Shown here: positions 13,249 through 40,438 of the stretch, one piece after another
Layout of the letters: each line of letters begins with the position of its first letter
Position numbering within the stretch: position 1 is the first letter of the stretch
Assembly: GCA_900175165.2 (NCBI GenBank)
Contig: FWWN02000674.1
Span: 119,404-183,403 of the forward strand
DNA length: 64,000 nucleotides
Origin: Rhizomucor pusillus
Lineage: Eukaryota; Mucoromycota; Mucoromycetes; Mucorales; Lichtheimiaceae
Direction of reading: 5' to 3'
Position numbers and translations under genes: made by a program
The notes under the pieces: generated by a model
What the model was told of the DNA's origin: nothing
The model's database searches: none
Seen by the model: only the letters and a program-made list of their open reading frames with translations

Positions 13249-16200
13249 ATGAAACGGCCCTCCACTGGCGAATCACAACCTCATAATTCAAAGCGACCCT
13301 GCACTCGATTACCCCCGCAGCAACAACCTTCTACTTATAGTACTACTGCTCCCCCACCAACCACTACCATGGCAAATAACACCAACGCCGTCCTGAATCA
13401 CATTCACGACATTGTCCAAGATCTGGAACAAGGCCATCTCGACGTTTGCCTTCGAAAAGCGCTCAAAAACGATGCAATCAAAACTCTATCCCCAGAGGAA
13501 AGCGCTCTGGCGATGGCGGTCGATAACGCTCTCAAGAATATAGCACAGCGCCAGCTCATGCTAGAGACCGACAATCTCAGATACAGGATTGCCATGCAGC
13601 AACAGCATCAGCTGCTCACAGCAGCAGCGCACTGCGACGACAATGCTGACGGCAACGACGATCAATCAATAGACCCAGATAATGCACTTAATTCCAAGGT
13701 CAAGTCGATAGACGCTCGATGCTCTACATCTGAAGAAGGTATTGCCTCTGTCAAGGAAACGTCCTTGCTGGATAAAATACAGTTACATGCTGCCACACCG
13801 CATTCAACATCATCATCAATACCGACTGGGTATTTTGGCAAGTATACCTTTTAGATACTTCTGTAAGTAGCATAATGGCTTACTTTTTCTTTGCAGCAAT
13901 ATCACCAATTTCTGAACCTTCTGCACCATCTCTTGCAACCTCCCCAACTGCGACGCCTCCATTCTCCACACCACCAGTAGTAACAACAAATAATACATCA
14001 CCTGTATACTACCGAGCACTGTCACCTCCTCTCTTGTCAATACCACCACCGTCATCCTCATCTAATACCAGTCCTGAAAATATTGTATGTCCTGATTGTG
14101 TTGTACAGGCCGTCGAAGTGGCATCCTCCGTTCTTGCCGGTAAACTCGAACAACGCATCACCTGCAACCACGAAAGATATGTGAATGGTACTGTAAGCCC
14201 CTCTTCGCCAATCAATCTTTTGAAGAACACAATGAATGCCATGACCGATCTGTTGAAGCGACTTGCCGACGAATGCATGTATGTTGCTCACGAGACAGCT
14301 GTGAAAGGCAAGCTTGGAGTACAAGCCCGGTGCGATCGTGAGATGAAGGGCATATGGAGAGACTTTGTTGTCAATTTAAACACGATGACTCGCAGCCACC
14401 TGGAGCAAGTTCGCGACATTGCCGACGTATCGACTGCCATTGCACGAGGGGACCTGAGCAAAGCCATGACTGTACCCGTCAAGGGCGAAACGCTTGTACT
14501 CAAGAATACGTTCAACACAATGGTAAACCAATTGAACCTCTTTGCATCCGAGGTTTCTCGAGTTGCACACGACGTGGGCACTGAAGGTCGGCTTGGCGCT
14601 CAGGCCACCGTGGCGGGCGCAGATGGCATCTGGAAAGAATTGACAGATAACGTCAACACCATGGCTGCCAACTTGACCAACCAAGTCCGCGACATTGCCC
14701 AAGTCAGCAAATCCGTGGCTCGCGGCGATCTTACAAAGAAAGTGACAGTCGAAGTGAAAGGCGAGATGCTGGATTTGAAAAACACAATCAATACGATGGT
14801 CGACCAGGTAACCAACAACAGTGCCTCTCTCTGTTGTGCGACGTCAGAGCTTAACTTTAATTTTCAACATCAATGCTTACCAATGGCTCATTGCTTAGCT
14901 TTCTACATTTGCGACAGAAGTCACTCGTGTCTCGTTGGAAGTTGGAACCGAAGGAATTCTCGGCGGCCAAGCTGTTGTCAAGGATGTAGCCGGCACGTGG
15001 AAGGACCTTACTGACAATGTCAACATGATGGCATACAGAGTTACAAGCCAAGTACGCGACGTTGCTGTCGTAGCAAAAGCTGTAGCCCAGGGCGATCTGA
15101 GCAAGAAAGTCACAGCTGATGCTCAAGGCGAAGTGCTTGAGTTGAAGAATACGATGAACCAAATGGTATGTAATCAGCCATGTCATTCAAGTTATTCAAC
15201 ATCCGTCTCATTTTGTTTACTACTAGGTGGATCAACTGACCTTGTTTTCGGCTGAACTGCGGCGTGTATCGCTAGAAGTCGGCGTTGAAGGGAAATTAGG
15301 AGGACAAGCTGTGGTCAAGGATGTCGGTGGTGCATGGAAAGACCTCACTGATAATGTAAACACGATGGCTGCAAATCTCACTACCCAAGTACGTTCTATC
15401 GCTGGCGTGACAAAAGCTGTTGCCATGGGCGATTTGTCAAAGAAAATTGAGGTTGAAACACGCGGCGAAATTCTCGACCTCAAGAACACTGTGAACGACA
15501 TGGTAGACCAGCTTCGTGTTTTCTCAACAGAGGTTACACGCGTAGCAAAGGAGGTCGGCACTGAGGGCAAACTTGGCGGTCAAGCCCGTGTACCCAATGT
15601 CGGTGGTACCTGGAAGGATCTAACAGATAATGTAAATACGATGGCAACCAATCTCACCACTCAAGTCCGTTCCATTGCCGTGGTAACCAAAGCCGTGGCC
15701 AACGGTGATTTATCAAAGAAAATCGATGTCGAAACGAGTGGCGAAATTTTGGATCTGAAAAATACTGTAAACGATATGGTCGACCAATTGAACGTGTTTG
15801 CAGCCGAAGTTACTCGCGTCGCAAAGGAAGTTGGCACTGACGGCAAGCTCGGGGGCGAAGCGATCGTACCCAATGTCAGCGGAACGTGGAAAGATCTGAC
15901 CGACAACGTCAATACGATGGCAGCCAACTTGACGACTCAAGTTCGATCCATTGCACTCGTTACCAAAGCTGTTGCCAAGGGTGATCTATCCAAAAAGATC
16001 GATGTCGAGACGAGCGGCGAGATATTGGAACTCAAAAACACGGTCAACAACATGGTAGATCAATTGAACGTTTTTGCGGCAGAAGTTACAAGAGTCGCCA
16101 AGGAAGTAGGCACGGAAGGAAAGCTGGGTGGACAAGCACTGGTACCCAACGTGGATGGAACGTGGATGGACTTGACGGATAACGTTAACCAAATGGCTGC

Positions 16201-19200
16201 AAATTTGACGACTCAAGTGAGATCCATCGCCGAAGTCACAAAAGCCGTAGCCAACGGTGATCTTAGCAAGAAAATCGAGGTTGAAAGTGGCGGCGAGATT
16301 CTCGAGTTGAAGAATACGGTTAACAATATGGTGGATCAATTGCGTGTATTTGCGTCCGAAGTGACTCGCGTGTCCAAGGAAGTTGGCACCGAAGGCAAAC
16401 TCGGCGGTCAAGCCGTGGTTCAAGGAGTTGCTGGGACCTGGCATGAATTGACAGATAACGTCAATATTATGGCGGCGAATTTGACGACTCAAGTACGTTC
16501 GATCGCAGAAGTAACAAAGGCAGTTGCCAGCGGCGATCTGTCAAAGAAGATTGAAGTCGAAACTCGTGGTGAAATTTTGGATCTAAAGAATATCGTCAAC
16601 GATATGGTGGACCAGCTACGTGTTTTCGCGTCTGAAGTAACAAGAGTTGCGCGTGAAGTCGGCACAGACGGTAAACTAGGTGGACAAGCTATTGTTTACG
16701 GCGTTGCAGGCACCTGGAAGGACCTTACGGATAACGTCAACACAATGGCTGCCAATCTGACAAACCAAGTACGCTCTATCGCCGAGGTTACCAAAGCAGT
16801 AGCCTTGGGTGATCTTTCCAAAAAGATCGAAGTAGAAAGCGGCGGCGAGATTCTCGAACTCAAGAATATCGTGAACAACATGGTTGATCAGCTTCGTATC
16901 TTCGCGTCTGAAGTTACTCGAGTGTCAAAGGAAGTCGGCACAGAAGGAAAATTGGGTGGTCAAGCGATCGTTCAAGGTGTTGCTGGCATGTGGAACGAGC
17001 TTACGAACAATGTTAATATCATGGCAGCCAACCTCACAAACCAGGTCCGCTCAATCGCTGAAGTTACAAAAGCAGTGGCTCTTGGTGATCTAAGCAAAAA
17101 GATTGAAGTCGAAAGTGGTGGAGAAATCCTGGAACTTAAGAATACTGTAAACGACATGGTGGATCAACTACGTGTCTTCTCCACTGAAGTGACCCGAGTC
17201 GCGAGGGAAGTCGGAACTGAAGGAAAGCTTGGAGGGCAGGCTATTGTCCAAGGTGTTGCCGGCACTTGGAAGGACTTGACGGATAACGTCAACATGATGG
17301 CTGGGAACTTGACAACCCAAGTCCGCTCGATTGCCGATGTTACTACCGCAGTTGCCAAGGGCGATCTGTCACGGAAAATTGACGTAGAAGTACAAGGTGA
17401 AATTCTTGAGCTAAAGTAAGTCAGAAAATGGTTACATTGCTATAAATATACATGTGCGAATATCAGCAAAACTCATTATATCTATCTAGGAATACGGTGA
17501 ATTCGATGGTCGATCAGCTTCGCGTTTTTGCGGCCGAGGTGACACGCGTTGCAAGAGAAGTTGGTACCGAGGGCATGCTAGGTGGCCAAGCGACTATCGT
17601 CGGTGTAGATGGTACATGGAAAGACCTGACCGATAATGTGAACTTGATGGCTAGCAATTTGACCGATCAACTTCGCGCCATCGCCGCCGTGTGCAAAGCC
17701 GTTGCTCAGGGAGACCTGTCAAAAAAGATCGAAGTTGAAGTGCACGGCGAAATAGCTGAACTCAAGAACACAATTAATACCATGGTGGATCAGCTCAATT
17801 CCTTTGCTTTTGAAGTGACAAGAGTCGCACGCGAAGTCGGCACAGAAGGCAACCTTGGTGTTGAAGCACGAGTCAAGGGGGTTGGTGGTGTGTGGCTCGA
17901 AATTACAAGCAATGTCAACACAATGGCTAGCAATTTGACGACCCAAGTACGTGCTTTCGCGCAGATTTCGGCGGCTGCGACGGAAAACGACTTTTCACGA
18001 CTTATCACCGTCGAAGCATCTGGTGAAATGGATGCCCTGAAAACCAAAATCAACCAAATGGTGGGCTCGTTGCGCGATGCTATCCGCAAGAATGGTCAAG
18101 CAAGAGAAGCGGCAGAGCTTGCTAATCGATCAAAGAGCGAGTTCTTGGCTAACATGAGCCATGAAATCCGCACACCCATGAACGGTATCATTGGCATGAC
18201 ATCTCTGACGCTTGAGACAGAGTTGACAAGGCAGCAGCGCGAAAATCTTATGATCGTGTCAAGTCTCGCCAATACACTTTTGACAATTATCGATGACATT
18301 TTGGATATCTCCAAAATAGAAGCTGGAAGGATGACTATTGAAGCGATACCATTTTCATTACGTTCCTCAGTCTTTAGCGTACTCAAGACGCTCGCGGTCA
18401 AAGCCAATCAGAAGAATTTGGATTTGATTTACAATGTTGATCCTAACATTCCAGACCAGCTTATTGGCGATCCTCTTCGCTTACGACAAGTTATCACAAA
18501 CCTAATTGGAAACGCTGTAAAGTTTACAGCGCGCGGTCATGTTTCCCTGGAAACGCATCTAGTGGAAACAGACGGTGATTATGTAACACTACAACTGTCT
18601 GTTAAAGACACAGGTATTGGCATTCATGAAGATAAGCTGCAAATCATCTTTGATACCTTTTGCCAATCTGACGGAAGCATCACGTAAGTGAAAAAAAAAA
18701 GAAAGCAAAGACCTCCATTTCTGGTTTGCATAATTACATTTAATACTTCTACCACATAGTCGCGAGTTTGGAGGCACTGGTCTCGGACTGTCAATTTCAA
18801 AGCACCTCGTACAGCTCATGGGAGGCGAGCTATGGGTAGAGTCCAATTACGGCCATGGCTCTCAGTTTTACTTCACCGTCAAGCTGCGGCGATACACTCT
18901 CGATGAAGAAGAAGTGCTTGCGAAGATGTTGCGATTCCAAGGCCGACGCATACTGTTTGTGGACAACAAGTATGATCAAGCAGACACCGCGGGAAAGATT
19001 GATCGGCTCGGACTGCAAACGTTCCGAGTGTGTAACGTTGAAGAGGCAACAGAGCTCGCCAACAAACATGAAGGTCGGAGCAAGCCGTTCTTCGATACCA
19101 TCGTGATCTCGAGCATGGATGACGCGGAGAAGATACGAGAGATTACATCCCTGAGATACATGCCTGTTGTGCTTGTTGCACCGGAAATTCAGCAACTTAA

Positions 19201-19788
19201 GATGAAATCATGCATTGATTATGGTATCACAGGCTACTTTATCTCTCCGTGCAACCTAGCTGACCTAGCTGACGCGCTCCAACCGGCGCTGGAAAGCCAC
19301 GCGGCTTTACCGAGCGACGGAAACGAACTATTGCCACTGAACATTCTGCTGGCCGAGGACAATGTTGTGAACCAAAAGCTGGCTGTGAGGTTCTTGCAAA
19401 AGTATCGCCACAACATCAAGATTGTGTCGAATGGCAAAATGGCAGTGGAAGCGTTCCAATCTCACGGCTTTGATCTGATTCTTATGGATGTCCAGATGCC
19501 AGTGATGGGTGGATTTGAAGCGACGCAGAAGATCCGAGAAATTGAACGCGAATCTGGCTCAGATACCCGTATACCCATTATTGCTCTGACGGCGCATGCT
19601 ATGATTGGTGACCGCGAACGATGCTTGCAAGCAGGCATGGTAATAAGGATCACGTTACATTTCCAGAAGGCTGTCACAGCATTTTAACCTTTTGTTCACC
19701 GTAGGACGAATATGTCACCAAACCTTTGCGTTTCCCGGAGCTCATCGCCGCTATTAAAAAGTTTACACCGCGTTTTGCTACCCGTTGA
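13249..19788 (+). CDS. Group III (Nik1/Os-1-like) hybrid histidine kinase with 13 HAMP units
   Basis: Seven exons (13249-13738, 13897-14807, 14899-15165, 15227-17415, 17490-18683, 18760-19639, 19705-19788) sum exactly to 2004 residues. After a disordered N-terminus, ~92-residue repeats run from about 14250 to 18070. Each has the pattern LTDNVNxMAANLTxQVRSIA, then [15 protein letters not shown], [17 protein letters not shown] and [12 protein letters not shown] count 13 GDLSKK-type HAMP units plus a degenerate one at the start. HisKA follows ([20 protein letters not shown], phospho-His in SHEIR), then HATPase (N box GNAVKF, G boxes DTGIGI and GTGLGLS), a degenerate receiver, and a receiver with [13 protein letters not shown] and a late Lys in TKPL. 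There are no membrane helices, so it should be cytosolic. Family members sense osmotic stress and fungicides through the HOG pathway. The first intron (13739-13896) is the only in-phase choice found. Confidence 0.9.
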
Positions 19789-21999: not shown

Positions 22000-24285
22000 A
22001 TGTTTAAACTCTTACAGTCTACGTCGCCTGCTGCAGTAAAGTATTACTGACGACAAACTGCTACATTGCCTTGCTAACGCGAGATTTTAAAATTTTCTTT
22101 GCGTCCCATATTATCAGTCACGAGCAACCCGTGAGTTTGACAGAACATTGTTGGCCCCTAAACACAACAACAACACACAACTAACATTTAAACATTCCAG
22201 GTGCCTTGACTGGACGCACTCTTGCACGCGGTCTTCATGTCTCCAAGCCTGCTATGCAGGTCATGGCAACCAACCCCTTGCGTGCAAAGGAAGCATCCGT
22301 AAGTTGCAGTGTGTGTGATTCACGTTGTGATTACGATTCTTACGCCAGCGTGTATACAGGGTCCTATTGCTAGCAAGTACCCCGTTATTGACCACGAATA
22401 CGACGCTGTTGTTGTTGGTGCTGGTGGCGCTGGTCTCCGTGCAGCCTTTGGTCTCGCTGAAGCCGGTTTCAATACCGCGTGTATTACCAAGCTCTTCCCC
22501 ACTCGTTCTCACACCGTCGCTGCACAGGTATGGGCGGATCTGCTGATCTGCTATGCAAAATCTAAATTGTCTAAATGTTGTTTGTAATATTCAGGGTGGT
22601 ATCAACGCTGCTTTGGGTAACATGACAGAGGATGACTGGAGATGGCACATGTATGATACCGTCAAGGGATCTGACTGGCTCGGTGACCAGGATGCTATCC
22701 ACTACATGTGTCGTGAGGCACCCAACACTGTCATCGAATTGGAAAACTACGGTGTGCCTTTCTCTCGTACCCCTGAAGGCAAGATCTACCAGCGTGCCTT
22801 TGGTGGTCAGAGCTTGAAGTACGGTAAGGGTGGTCAAGCATACCGCTGTGCTGCTGTCGCCGATCGTACCGGTCACGCTATCTTGCACACTCTCTACGGT
22901 CAATCTCTTCGCCACAACACCAACTACTTTATCGAATACTTTGCTCTTGATTTGATTATGGAAGATGGTGAATGCAAGGGTGTCATTGCTCTTAACATGG
23001 AAGATGGTACTCTCCACCGTTTCCGTTCTCACAAGACCGTCTTGGCAACTGGCGGTTACGGTCGTGCTTACTTCTCATGCACTTCCGCCCACACTTGCAC
23101 TGGTGACGGTAACGCCATGGTTGCCCGTGCTGGTCTTCCTCTTCAGGACTTGGAATTCGTCCAGTTCCATCCCACTGGTATCTACGGTGCTGGCTGCTTG
23201 ATCACCGAAGGTTCCCGCGGTGAAGGTGGTATTTTGATCAACTCTGCTGGTGAACGTTTCATGGAACGTTATGCCCCTACCGCCAAGGATTTGGCTTCTC
23301 GCGACGTCGTCTCTCGTGCCATGACCTTGGAAATTAAGGAAGGCCGCGGTGTCGGTCCCGAAAAGGATCACATCTACCTCCAATTGCACCACTTGCCCGC
23401 TGAAGTCTTGCACGAACGTTTGCCTGGTATTTCCGAAACCGCTGCCATTTTTGCTGGTGTTGATGTTACCAAGGAACCTATTCCCGTACTTCCTACCGTC
23501 CATTACAACATGGGTGGTATCCCAACCCGCTACACCGGTGAAGTCCTGCGAGTTGATGAGAACGGCAACGACCAAATCGTTCCTGGCTTGTACGCTGCCG
23601 GTGAAGCCGCCTGCGTCTCTGTCCACGGTGCTAACCGTCTCGGTGCCAACTCTTTGTTGGATATTGTCGTCTTTGGTCGCGCTGTTGCCCACCACATTGC
23701 TGACACTCTTGAACCCGGCACTCCTTTGAAGCCCTTCGCTGCTGATGCTGGTGCTGACACCATTGCCAACTTGGACAAACTCCGCAACGCCGACGGTGAC
23801 AAGTCCACTGCTGAAATCCGTCTGAAGATGCAAAAGGTCATGCAGGCTGACGCTGCTGTCTTCCGTACTCAGGAGACTCTCGACCAAGGTGTCAAGAAGA
23901 TCGATGAAGTCTGGCAATCCTTCAAGGATGTCAAGGTCACTGACCGTGGCATGATCTGGAACACTGATCTCACTGAAACTCTTGAACTACAAAACTTGTT
24001 GACTTGCGCAGCACAAACCATGCACGCTGCTGCTGTCCGCACTGAATCCCGTGGTGCCCACGCGCGCGATGACTACCCCAACCGTGATGATGAGGTGAGA
24101 TAACGCAATTCTGCTCGATGTAGGACAACCTCTAAACTATTATGTAATAGAAATGGATGAAGCACACTCTTTCATGGCAAGACCAAGAAACCGGTGAAGT
24201 CAAGCTCTCATACCGTGGTGTTGAGGCCAACACTTTGGACGAGAACGAATGCAAGCCTGTCCCACCATTCGCCCGTGTCTACTAG
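22000..24285 (+). CDS. SDH1: Succinate dehydrogenase flavoprotein subunit, mitochondrial
   Basis: Six exons (22000-22035, 22118-22130, 22201-22298, 22360-22527, 22595-24094, 24151-24285) sum to 649 residues. An N-terminal presequence ([20 protein letters not shown]) fits mitochondrial import. The FAD-binding start [20 protein letters not shown] is followed by [16 protein letters not shown], which carries the His that binds FAD covalently. [20 protein letters not shown] and the active-site Arg region ([28 protein letters not shown]) are intact. The C-terminus [16 protein letters not shown] is typical of eukaryotic SdhA. It is the catalytic subunit of complex II, oxidising succinate to fumarate. 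Exon 2 is only 13 nt; see findings. The large exon shows strong codon bias, consistent with high expression. Confidence 0.96.
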
Positions 24286-38219: not shown

Positions 38220-38492
38220 CTACTGGCCCTTGAGTATATCCAACAAGGAATTGCTCTTCGCTGGCTGCTGTGGTTCCTCAGCCTTCCTCAACAATTGGAT
38301 TAAGGGATGAACGCTCTCGGTCGCGTTAGAGAGTCCATCCGGAGCACCAGTTTTAGCTTCTTTTGGCTCTTCAGCACCGTTGCTGCTGCTGTCAGGCTTC
38401 TGCGCACTCTTTAGAAGGTGCAGTAAGGGATGTTGCTGCTGCTCAGGCACAGGCACAGGCTTTTGGTGATTCTCAATTGATGGTGCCCCTGG

Positions 38493-38524
<32 letters not shown>

Positions 38525-40204
38525 GCTTGTTGTAAGAAGCTTGCTGCAACGTGCTCATCAGATCGGATGGGGAGTTGTTCTTGTTATTACTATCATTATT
38601 GGTGCTGCTAATGCTTCCTTTAGTGAGGGTATTGAGCAGAGAGTTCTTGCGTTTGGCTTCACTTTCAGAGTCGGGGCCCGATGGTTCATTGACACCCCTG
38701 TCTGTGCTTCCCTAATATCAAAAGCATGTACGTTATTACCTTGGCATTTTCTATGTTACACACCCAACGTGGTTTGTCGCTCGCGGACTTACACCACGAC
38801 TTTTCAGCATTTCTTCAACAAGGGATGCACGATGCGCAGTTTTCGGCGTTGCTGCTGCAAAGGTTGAGGATTTGACTCCTGATGTTGCAAACAGCTGTGC
38901 CAAAGCGTCGGGTTGCTTGGAAGGTTCTACTGCCTTGTGTAACTTCTCCGCTCCACTGCTTTTGCTCGACACGCTCGAGCTTGTTGGCGATTGATCAGTT
39001 ACTCCAAGCAATGATTTCAACGTCATGGTTGACTCCTTGGGTGGAGAGGACGCCGTCGCCGCCTGAGCCTCAGCCACGTTCTGCTTTGATGATGATGACG
39101 ACGATGCTTTCTTCTTTTCCTGACGCGAGGTTGTTTTCTCCTTTGAGGGTACCTTACTATTTCGCTTTGGTTGCTGCTGATTATAGTCACCACCTCCTTT
39201 CCTTCGCTGCAGCTCCTTGCGTAGGGTTGGTATAGTTTGTTTAAGTTTGCTGTTGAAGTTATGAACGATAAGCATTCAAAGTTTAACCTTATCAGTAATT
39301 AACATACTTCAAAAATGGCACAACCATGTAAAAGGGGCCAGGTTTAACATTTGGGTTCAATCCTGGTAACTCGTCCAACTTGAACCATCGTATGTCCTAT
39401 GCCGTCATTGTTATCCCCTTGTTCTCCTATTTCGGCAATTAACAGGCTGTTCTCTTTCTCACGTACACTGATCTCATTTCGTGTCATGGCTTGGAATTTG
39501 GTATCTTCTGGTACACCAGGCACCAGATACAAGCGGATCAATTTGTTGTTCATGGTTCGCTGGATATATGTCTTGCTCATCAACGTAGTGATATCATATC
39601 CTGTCTCTTCTTGCACCTGGACACGCGGGCATCAATGATACGATGTAGTATGCGCGGCTACAGTCCTCCATTTACCTCTCTAATTGCGCAGTGATCGTAT
39701 TCTTCGTTTTGGTTAATCTTTCCCCTGGGAAAGCTCCACGTATTTCCTTTCCATCCCTTGACGAGTATGCATTTGTCCAAATTCTCATTCATAATGATGG
39801 CGCCGCAAACGGGTATACGGAACTTGTATTCCATGAATTGCGCATACAGCCCATCGTGATCGGCTGCCCATTTTGCAAGCAGGTGGCAGTGCTTGAAAAG
39901 TGCTGTTGTCGTTAAGGATTGAATCACGTTATCTCTCCTTCTTTGCTCAATGTTTTAATCAATCTGATAAAGAAAAGAAAAAAAGGATATTTCTTGAAGA
40001 AAAAGTCTTGAGTTGGAACGACGGTAATCTCGGCTGGATCATGCGTACAAAGTCTTCATAGAACCAATGTGCCTGTTCCACTTGGAAACAGATGCGTTCG
40101 GCTGTCAATTCCACGTCAGGCACGTTCACGACGAATCGACTGCGAAGGCAAGAGTCGTTAGGTGTTAAGTTGATCGCGGCGCTGTTGCGACGGTTTCCCG
40201 CCAT
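38220..40204 (-). CDS. DCP2: Dcp2, mRNA decapping Nudix hydrolase
   Basis: Six exons (40204-39991, 39899-39676, 39616-39467, 39396-39308, 39249-38793, 38711-38220) sum to 541 residues. Box A at the N-terminus: ERICFQVEQAHWFYEDFVR. The Nudix motif GKINQNEEYDHCAIRE, continued as VQEETGY, matches GX5EX7REUXEEXGU exactly. Box B follows (DIRWFKLDELPG). The rest is disordered with Lys/Ser runs, a poly-Gln tract of about a dozen CAA codons (38490-38526), and several short leucine-rich helices such as LLHLLKSA, LIQLLRKA and a terminal LLDILKGQ. Dcp2 removes the 5' cap in P-bodies; the leucine-rich motifs recruit Edc3 and other partners in yeasts. Intron 1 (39990-39900) has U12-type ends, see findings. 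An ATG 9 nt upstream could also serve. Confidence 0.95.
38490..38526. repeat. TTG/CAA trinucleotide tract coding poly-Gln in Dcp2
   Basis: Uninterrupted TTG repeats on the plus strand (CAA on the coding strand). A single codon type throughout makes it slippage-prone and likely length-variable. Confidence 0.9.
39900..39990 (-). other. U12-type AT-AC intron in DCP2
   Basis: The 91-nt intron begins ATATCCTTTT, the canonical U12 5' splice site. It carries ATCCTTAAC (39919-39911), the U12 branch site, 12 nt before a terminal AC. No GT donor exists in the region, and splicing restores the conserved TFSSRIFKHCHLL of Dcp2 in frame. Confidence 0.85.
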
Positions 40205-40438
40205 GCTAACCATGCAAGATCATCGAGCACCTCCTCGAGGGTGCCTGTAGCTAAAATGTTAGGCTGTTGCATCAAAGCTTGAAAAGTCTATCGGTGAGAA
40301 CACTGCTGCATACAACGATGACCGCGGCTTTCATTGGCGCCGCCGCTGGCTGGCTGACTGGCGGCGCACAAGCTCAGATAATACCAATGAAACGATCTCA
40401 CGATGTTATTTTTTTTTTTACATGGAGAATACATTTAA

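Follow-up and report, generated by a model that had tools for sequence, protein, structure and literature searches.

A probable U12-type AT-AC intron in the mRNA-decapping gene DCP2 of Rhizomucor pusillus and an apparent variant minor spliceosome in the same genome

The gene for the decapping enzyme DCP2 of Rhizomucor pusillus very probably contains a genuine U12-type AT-AC intron, which runs from 39990 to 39900 on the minus strand of the 64,000-nucleotide stretch of contig FWWN02000674.1 that we analyzed (the window). We put the probability of this reading at about 0.93, and the sequence, the gene model, the traces of the intron in related fungi and the minor-spliceosome parts found in the same genome all agree with it; the splicing itself we infer. 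Overall this looks like an intron of a known class that is served by an apparent variant of the minor spliceosome.

The complete DCP2 model occupies 38220..40272 on the minus strand, with the ATG at 40272 and the stop codon ending at 38220. Script-based removal of six introns leaves a coding sequence of 1623 nt for 540 amino acids that is open throughout and has a single terminal stop, which bears out the exon total divisible by three given in a preliminary description of this DNA. A Pfam search with the first 245 amino acids found DCP2 box A (PF05026, 108.2 bits) followed by NUDIX (PF00293, 63.4 bits), both over cut-off, and this order of box A and then Nudix domain identifies the product as a DCP2 decapping enzyme. 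Five introns of this script-spliced model are of the GT-AG type, namely intron 1 (40140..40210), intron 3 (39617..39675), intron 4 (39397..39466), intron 5 (39250..39307) and intron 6 (38712..38792). The remaining one, intron 2 at 39900..39990, is a phase 1 intron of 91 nt that is assigned to the U12-type AT-AC class from its sequence, the spliced model and a genome-wide pattern.

Two other features of the window are recorded here. The plus strand holds a hybrid histidine kinase-like gene at 13776-19687 (named by eye), with kinase and receiver parts after a HAMP-type repeat run in which the motif GDL[ST]K occurs 11 times, three frames summed. On the minus strand a 303-amino-acid open frame at 23075-23986 lies antisense to a succinate dehydrogenase/fumarate reductase-like frame at 22547-24103 on the plus strand, and is probably a by-product of codon bias.

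The outline of the DCP2 AT-AC intron is ATATCCTTTTTT...TTCAATCCTTAACGACAACAGCAC. Its 5' splice site ATATCCTTTTTT (39979..39990) can pair with the U11 5' end (AAAAAGG) and with U6atac (AAGGA), and the letters from 39990 to 39981, ATATCCTTTT, agree with the U12-type consensus ATATCCTTT, so that the perfect U12 donor of the preliminary description is upheld. The branch region TCAATCCTTAAC lies at 39911..39922, and its TCAATCCTTA is reverse-complementary without a mismatch to UAAGGAUUGA of locus L009, this genome's U12 candidate, which is discussed below. Within this region ATCCTTAAC at 39919-39911 matches (T)TCCTTAAC near the 3' end of the intron, exactly at positions 2-9 and with A at position 1. 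Letters and coordinates had thus been given correctly, and what needs correction is the description of this site as one mismatch from TTCCTTAAC, since A is the commonest base at branch position 1 of these AT-AC introns and pairs with the U12 candidate. The branch A at 39912 is followed after 12 nt by the end of the intron, an AC at 39900..39901 in both the sequence and the spliced model, exactly as first described; a distance of 11-13 nt from branch site to 3' splice site is optimal (PMC3584512). In the spliced model the exons join as AGA A/TT TTC, which gives FSSR-I-FKHC, and translation through a retained intron stops after 80 amino acids, ahead of the Nudix domain. The combination of ATATCCTT, then TCCTTAAC 20-90 nt on, then AC occurs once over the two strands of the window taken together, against about 0.0009 occurrences expected from a first-order Markov model, and this sole strict-pattern occurrence coincides with the point at which the Dcp2 frame calls for an intron. 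The rejoining of TFSSR with IFKHCHLL at Dcp2 family spacing also agrees with the fetched proteins: a simple expression for this spacing matched 87 of 128 (41 had no match), and 80 of the matches keep the same four-residue spacing as R. pusillus, while five of the other seven are models that read through the intron.

Traces of the same intron are evident in DCP2 proteins from other fungi, where introns were deduced from read-through in protein models. The named best DCP2 matches are nearly all from Mucorales, and in a tree of 23 rows the copy in the window groups with Syncephalastrum, Dichotomocladium, Zychaea and Lichtheimia (100/98), with its long branch making its place inside the Syncephalastrum/Lichtheimia group unsure. 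An exonic A followed by ATATCCTT reads N-I-L when translated in frame, and K/R-N-I-L follows directly after the box A motif F-S-x-K/R in seven of the 128 fetched proteins. These are the proteins from Radiomyces (P0009), Cokeromyces (P0018), Syncephalis (P0048), Lichtheimia ornata (P0123), Basidiobolus ranarum (P0089) and Basidiobolus meristosporus (P0125) and a metagenome protein (P0121), those with names all belonging to Mucoromycota or Zoopagomycota. In the Radiomyces protein the entire intron appears to be translated (NILFF...ILN-SFT-L, 105 nt), and the ILN in it corresponds to ATHCTNAAY, which places an A at branch position 1. In P0018, P0048, P0089, P0123 and P0125 only the donor side is visible and P0121 goes out of frame, so among the relatives branch position 1 can be read in a single species. 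The models of Lichtheimia corymbifera and L. hyalospora are properly joined as FSEK-IFKHC. P0103 joins FSAR-IFKHC with its neighbouring introns seemingly read through, and its organism may therefore lack the DCP2 intron, or else the contig may stem from a transcript spliced only in part. Since proteins from Mucoromycota and from Zoopagomycota alike read through at this residue, the DCP2 AT-AC intron is probably old and would date from before the split of these two groups.

Other ways of splicing this region have to be set against the AT-AC reading. An intron with the same ATATCC start could end as AT-AG at the CAG at 39905-39903, which keeps the frame open and lies 9 nt past the branch A. The product would be FSSR-TL-FKHC, with one residue inserted where 80 of the 128 Dcp2 proteins keep four, and the 12 nt to the AC suits the published optimum (PMC3584512) better than 9 nt, so that we give this end only a slim chance. 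Even more improbable is that no minor intron is used and that the gene is spliced there by a GT-AG pair, for example 40048 to 39892 (EDF/HCHLL). The models of four relatives do use such pairs and omit part of box A, with P0014 and P0093 reading EDF-HCPLL (the jump from EDF to HCPLL is that of Syncephalastrum and of one Phycomyces model) and P0100 and P0102 reading CFQ-HCPLL, and 40048/39892, the R. pusillus counterpart of the EDF-HCPLL pair, has an open frame. Indeed, the preliminary description went too far in stating that no usable GT donor is nearby: in a scan reaching from 90 nt upstream of the intron's AT to 80 nt downstream of it, donors at 40064, 40048, 40022 and 40019 give nine open GT-AG joins. 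However, each of these deletes or alters box A residues, which the 80 proteins with regular spacing retain, P0007, a further model from Phycomyces blakesleeanus, shows FSAK-IFKHC in full, and under GT-AG splicing the donor and branch site would be conserved for nothing. The AT-AC intron from 39990 to 39900 is thus the reading that we retain.

The DCP2 intron has siblings across the genome (24.45 Mb in 353 contigs). The pattern ATATCCTT-N25..55-TCCTTAAC-N7..20-AC gave 15 rows at 12 distinct places (three duplicates dropped), and the same pattern with N56..86 gave nine rows at eight distinct places including DCP2 (one duplicate dropped), where a duplicate is the same intron with a second acceptor. 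The genome therefore has at least 20 AT-AC introns by strict pattern, with DCP2 among them, against none for the reversed-pattern controls in both gap ranges and about 0.15 expected per pattern from a Markov model of the window. At positions 9-10 of the donor, where the pattern imposes no base, all 20 introns read TT. Spliced peptides were prepared for 19 of them, with acceptors picked by hand among open ACs and later checked by script; L038, which has no convincing frame, was left out. Ten of these peptides have a Pfam match over cut-off (DCP2, TatD, IPK, Ion_trans twice, IBN_N, RNB, Prefoldin, Gaa1 and MIOS) and nine have none, and the splice junction falls inside the match in eight, IPK and the second Ion_trans being the exceptions. 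Phases 1, 2 and 0 account for 10, 5 and 4 of the 19 introns. In the gap range N25..55 the GT-AG counterpart of the pattern has a single match versus 12 for AT-AC; this match, L027, the sole strict-pattern GT-AG minor intron, has a weak open-frame context and was left uncounted. With this ratio of 12:1 compared with 8-9 AT-AC and 8-12 GT-AG minor introns in Phycomyces (PMC2846911), the genome looks AT-AC-rich, although strict patterns may under-count GT-AG.

Several of the sibling introns are of note for their host genes. L019 and L025 are similar genes with the AT-AC intron at the same residue (FFL/MR-DAMLDS), L025 being weakly TBC-like below the Pfam cut-off, and this intron may therefore predate their duplication. 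L016 and L032 are ion-channel-like stretches (Ion_trans over cut-off) with AT-AC introns; voltage-gated channels are known hosts of minor introns in animals (PMC8767276). L023 is an RNB-domain ribonuclease gene (Pfam RNB; DIS3-like by eye) and is a second RNA-decay gene with an AT-AC intron.

We searched the same genome for components of the minor spliceosome, whose absence had been named in the preliminary description as evidence that would speak against a U12-type intron. Profile searches found U11 at 75.2 bits (Rfam cut-off 39), U6atac at 50.1 bits (Rfam cut-off 33) and the PDCD7/U11-59K C-terminus domain at 30.5 bits (cut-off 27), and none of these three is over cut-off in any of 14 control genomes, which are bacterial or archaeal where named. 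Components are thus not wholly absent: two of the four snRNAs that the preliminary description proposed to look for, U11 and U6atac, are present, U12 is represented by a sub-threshold candidate, and U4atac was not found. Specifically, an Rfam search for U4atac had no match at E up to 10 among the best 48 of 772 candidates that were scored, and a pattern designed for complementarity to the U6atac of this genome matched only U6atac's own antisense.

In regards to U12, Rfam RF00007 has no match in the genome at the default threshold. At a relaxed threshold there is one match, L009, with 24.7 bits against a gathering score of 53 and a genome E of 0.078, in a search that scored the best 42 of 1147 candidates; its E is 0.042 when L009 is searched alone, and when it is searched with three other loci it is missing from the matches up to E 0.1. 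Features of the locus include AUGCCU, GAGUAAGGA, AAUUUUUU as an Sm-like site and a hairpin of 8 bp, and it reads AUGCCUCAAUUAAUGAGUAAGGAUUGAUGAGG where the Rfam U12 consensus has GAGUaAGGAAAAuAA. An animal-type U12 23-mer has no match in the genome with up to three mismatches, since L009 diverges after GAGTAAGGA. No other match to ATGCCT...GAGTAAGGA was reported in the genome, and a reversed control of the L009 5' pattern had one. In the predicted fold of L009, GGAUUGA pairs with UUUAAUCC downstream, so the UUGA may belong to an extended stem II, which would need to unfold before these bases could pair with the branch site. On this evidence we treat L009 as a putative U12, an RNA predicted to start with AUGCCU and to carry GAGUAAGGAUUGA, and as a candidate rather than a member of the family. 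With its genome E of 0.078 it would probably escape surveys such as that of PMC10639083, where an Rfam E of 0.01 is the limit for calling U12.

The branch-recognition bases of L009 are complementary to the branch sites of the genome. Position 1 of the branch site is left free in the patterns, and among the 20 AT-AC introns it is A in 17, T in two and G in one (p 5e-7 relative to an intron-body A content of 0.298); upstream of it position -2 is T in 13 of 20 (p 0.01), position -1 is C in 10 of 20 (p 0.001) and position 0 is A in 10 of 20 (p 0.046), with all of these p values treating the introns as independent even though L019 and L025 look like paralogues. By these leanings the leading bases of the introns, TCAATCCTTA, complement UAAGGAUUGA of the U12 candidate. 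In animal-type U12, GUAAGGA is followed by AAAA, whereas the four bases past the core of L009 are UUGA, with the complementary U facing the A of branch position 1. When all 256 continuations of GUAAGGA were ranked against the 20 introns, UUGA came first both by mean duplex energy and by number of Watson-Crick pairs and second, after UUGG, once G-U pairs are counted; the animal-type AAAA ranks 176, 63 and 122, respectively. All 20 introns pair more strongly with L009 than with the animal U12 sequence, some of them by only a few tenths of a kcal/mol, and the DCP2 branch region forms ten unbroken pairs with L009. A U12 reading GUAAGGAU was predicted from the first 12 introns ahead of viewing L009, with the prediction put in writing afterwards. 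This complementarity both supports L009 as a true U12 and suggests that the U12 branch-recognition sequence, in its UUGA form rather than GUAAGGAAA, and the branch sites of the introns have changed jointly, which we consider likely from sequences that come from one genome and one consistent outside branch site (Radiomyces). A joint change of minor-intron signals and spliceosome is reportedly also found in Physarum (Larue, Elias and Roy 2021), with thousands of minor introns there versus tens in R. pusillus.

Against a joint change, the UUGA of L009 may be unrelated to the A-rich branch position, a possibility that concerns the joint change only and not the intron, and whose odds stand apart from those of the rival splicings. 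L009 could be a pseudogene or a chance match, as its low covariance score would favour, but it has the AUGCCU, GAGUAAGGA, the Sm-like site and the hairpin listed above, and a chance origin fits poorly with UUGA being first among 256 by both mean energy and Watson-Crick pairs over 20 introns when AAAA ranks 176 and 63. The true U12 could have been missed, given that only the best 42 of 1147 candidates were scored, yet the ATGCCT...GAGTAAGGA match reported in the genome is a single one. Finally, UUGA could be there for the extended stem II, in keeping with the pairing of GGAUUGA inside the predicted fold, but this role leaves the TCAA of the introns unexplained. Taken together we regard an unrelated UUGA as unlikely, and a joint change of U12 and the branch sites remains the reading that we prefer.

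Minor introns in Mucorales are already known (PMC2846911; PMC10639083). Bartschat and Samuelsson (2010; PMC2846911), who used two methods on ESTs, gave one AT-AC and 2-3 GT-AG minor introns for Rhizopus oryzae and 8-9 AT-AC and 8-12 GT-AG minor introns for Phycomyces blakesleeanus. The U12-type introns of these fungi share with those of R. pusillus the donor RTATCCTTT, the branch UCCUUAAC, partly AT-AC ends and U12-type snRNAs, whereas R. pusillus differs by its larger number of AT-AC introns, its preponderance of AT-AC over GT-AG within the same gap range and a branch position 1 that is mostly A. Larue and Roy (2023; PMC10639083) reported 205 minor introns in Rhizophagus and the highest density in Basidiobolus; R. 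pusillus has in common with these other non-Dikarya fungi that minor introns are kept and that the phases follow the order 1 > 2 > 0, but the Rhizophagus motifs are close to those of animals and plants and the R. pusillus branch motif and U12 candidate are different. A parallel is seen in Lichtheimia corymbifera (PMC4133162), where four of five AT-AC splicing RNAs were found, U4atac was undetected in assembly or reads, U12 is shortened with an extended stem II and a missing third stem, and the second half of U6atac is divergent. R. pusillus is like this species in that U4atac was not found; U11 and U6atac are present and U12 has a candidate. The branch-recognition bases and the particular introns are described here from a different genome and are not discussed in the available portion of PMC4133162. 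In the available portions of the open-licence literature we found no description of the DCP2 intron, of its apparent presence in Mucoromycota and Zoopagomycota or of a changed U12-branch pairing.

The complementarities of U11, U6atac and the U12 candidate to the DCP2 intron are direct features of the sequences, and the splicing reaction would proceed as in known minor spliceosomes. U11 (5' AAAAAGGGC) would bind the donor CCTTTTT and U12 the branch region with its A bulged, U6atac (AAGGAGAGA) would then replace U11 on the donor, and the exons would be joined as AGA A/TT TTC by the minor spliceosome encoded in the same genome. In this lineage U12 would have exchanged GUAAGGA-AAAA for GUAAGGA-UUGA as its branch-recognition sequence, with the branch sites of the introns shifting alongside towards TCAA-TCCTTAAC, giving a longer helix. 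A more speculative proposal, which we hold to be rather doubtful, is a rewired minor spliceosome in this branch of the Mucorales, in which U4atac has been lost, the major U4 chaperones U6atac, U12 and the introns have jointly moved to a new branch helix of greater length, formed by TCAAUCCUUAAC and GUAAGGAUUGA, and ancient minor introns, the one in DCP2 included, persist and are still functional.

If the joint change is confirmed, nature would have supplied a compensatory test of the U12-branch helix. With two related genomes in which U4atac was not detected (R. pusillus, and Lichtheimia as published in PMC4133162), it becomes directly testable whether a minor spliceosome can work in its absence. 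For these fungi the AT-AC intron explains why some gene models misread DCP2. With the intron left in, translation would end before the catalytic Nudix domain, and given this truncated product DCP2 decapping may depend on U12 splicing. That a core gene of mRNA decay has kept a minor intron of such apparent age shows how long these introns persist.
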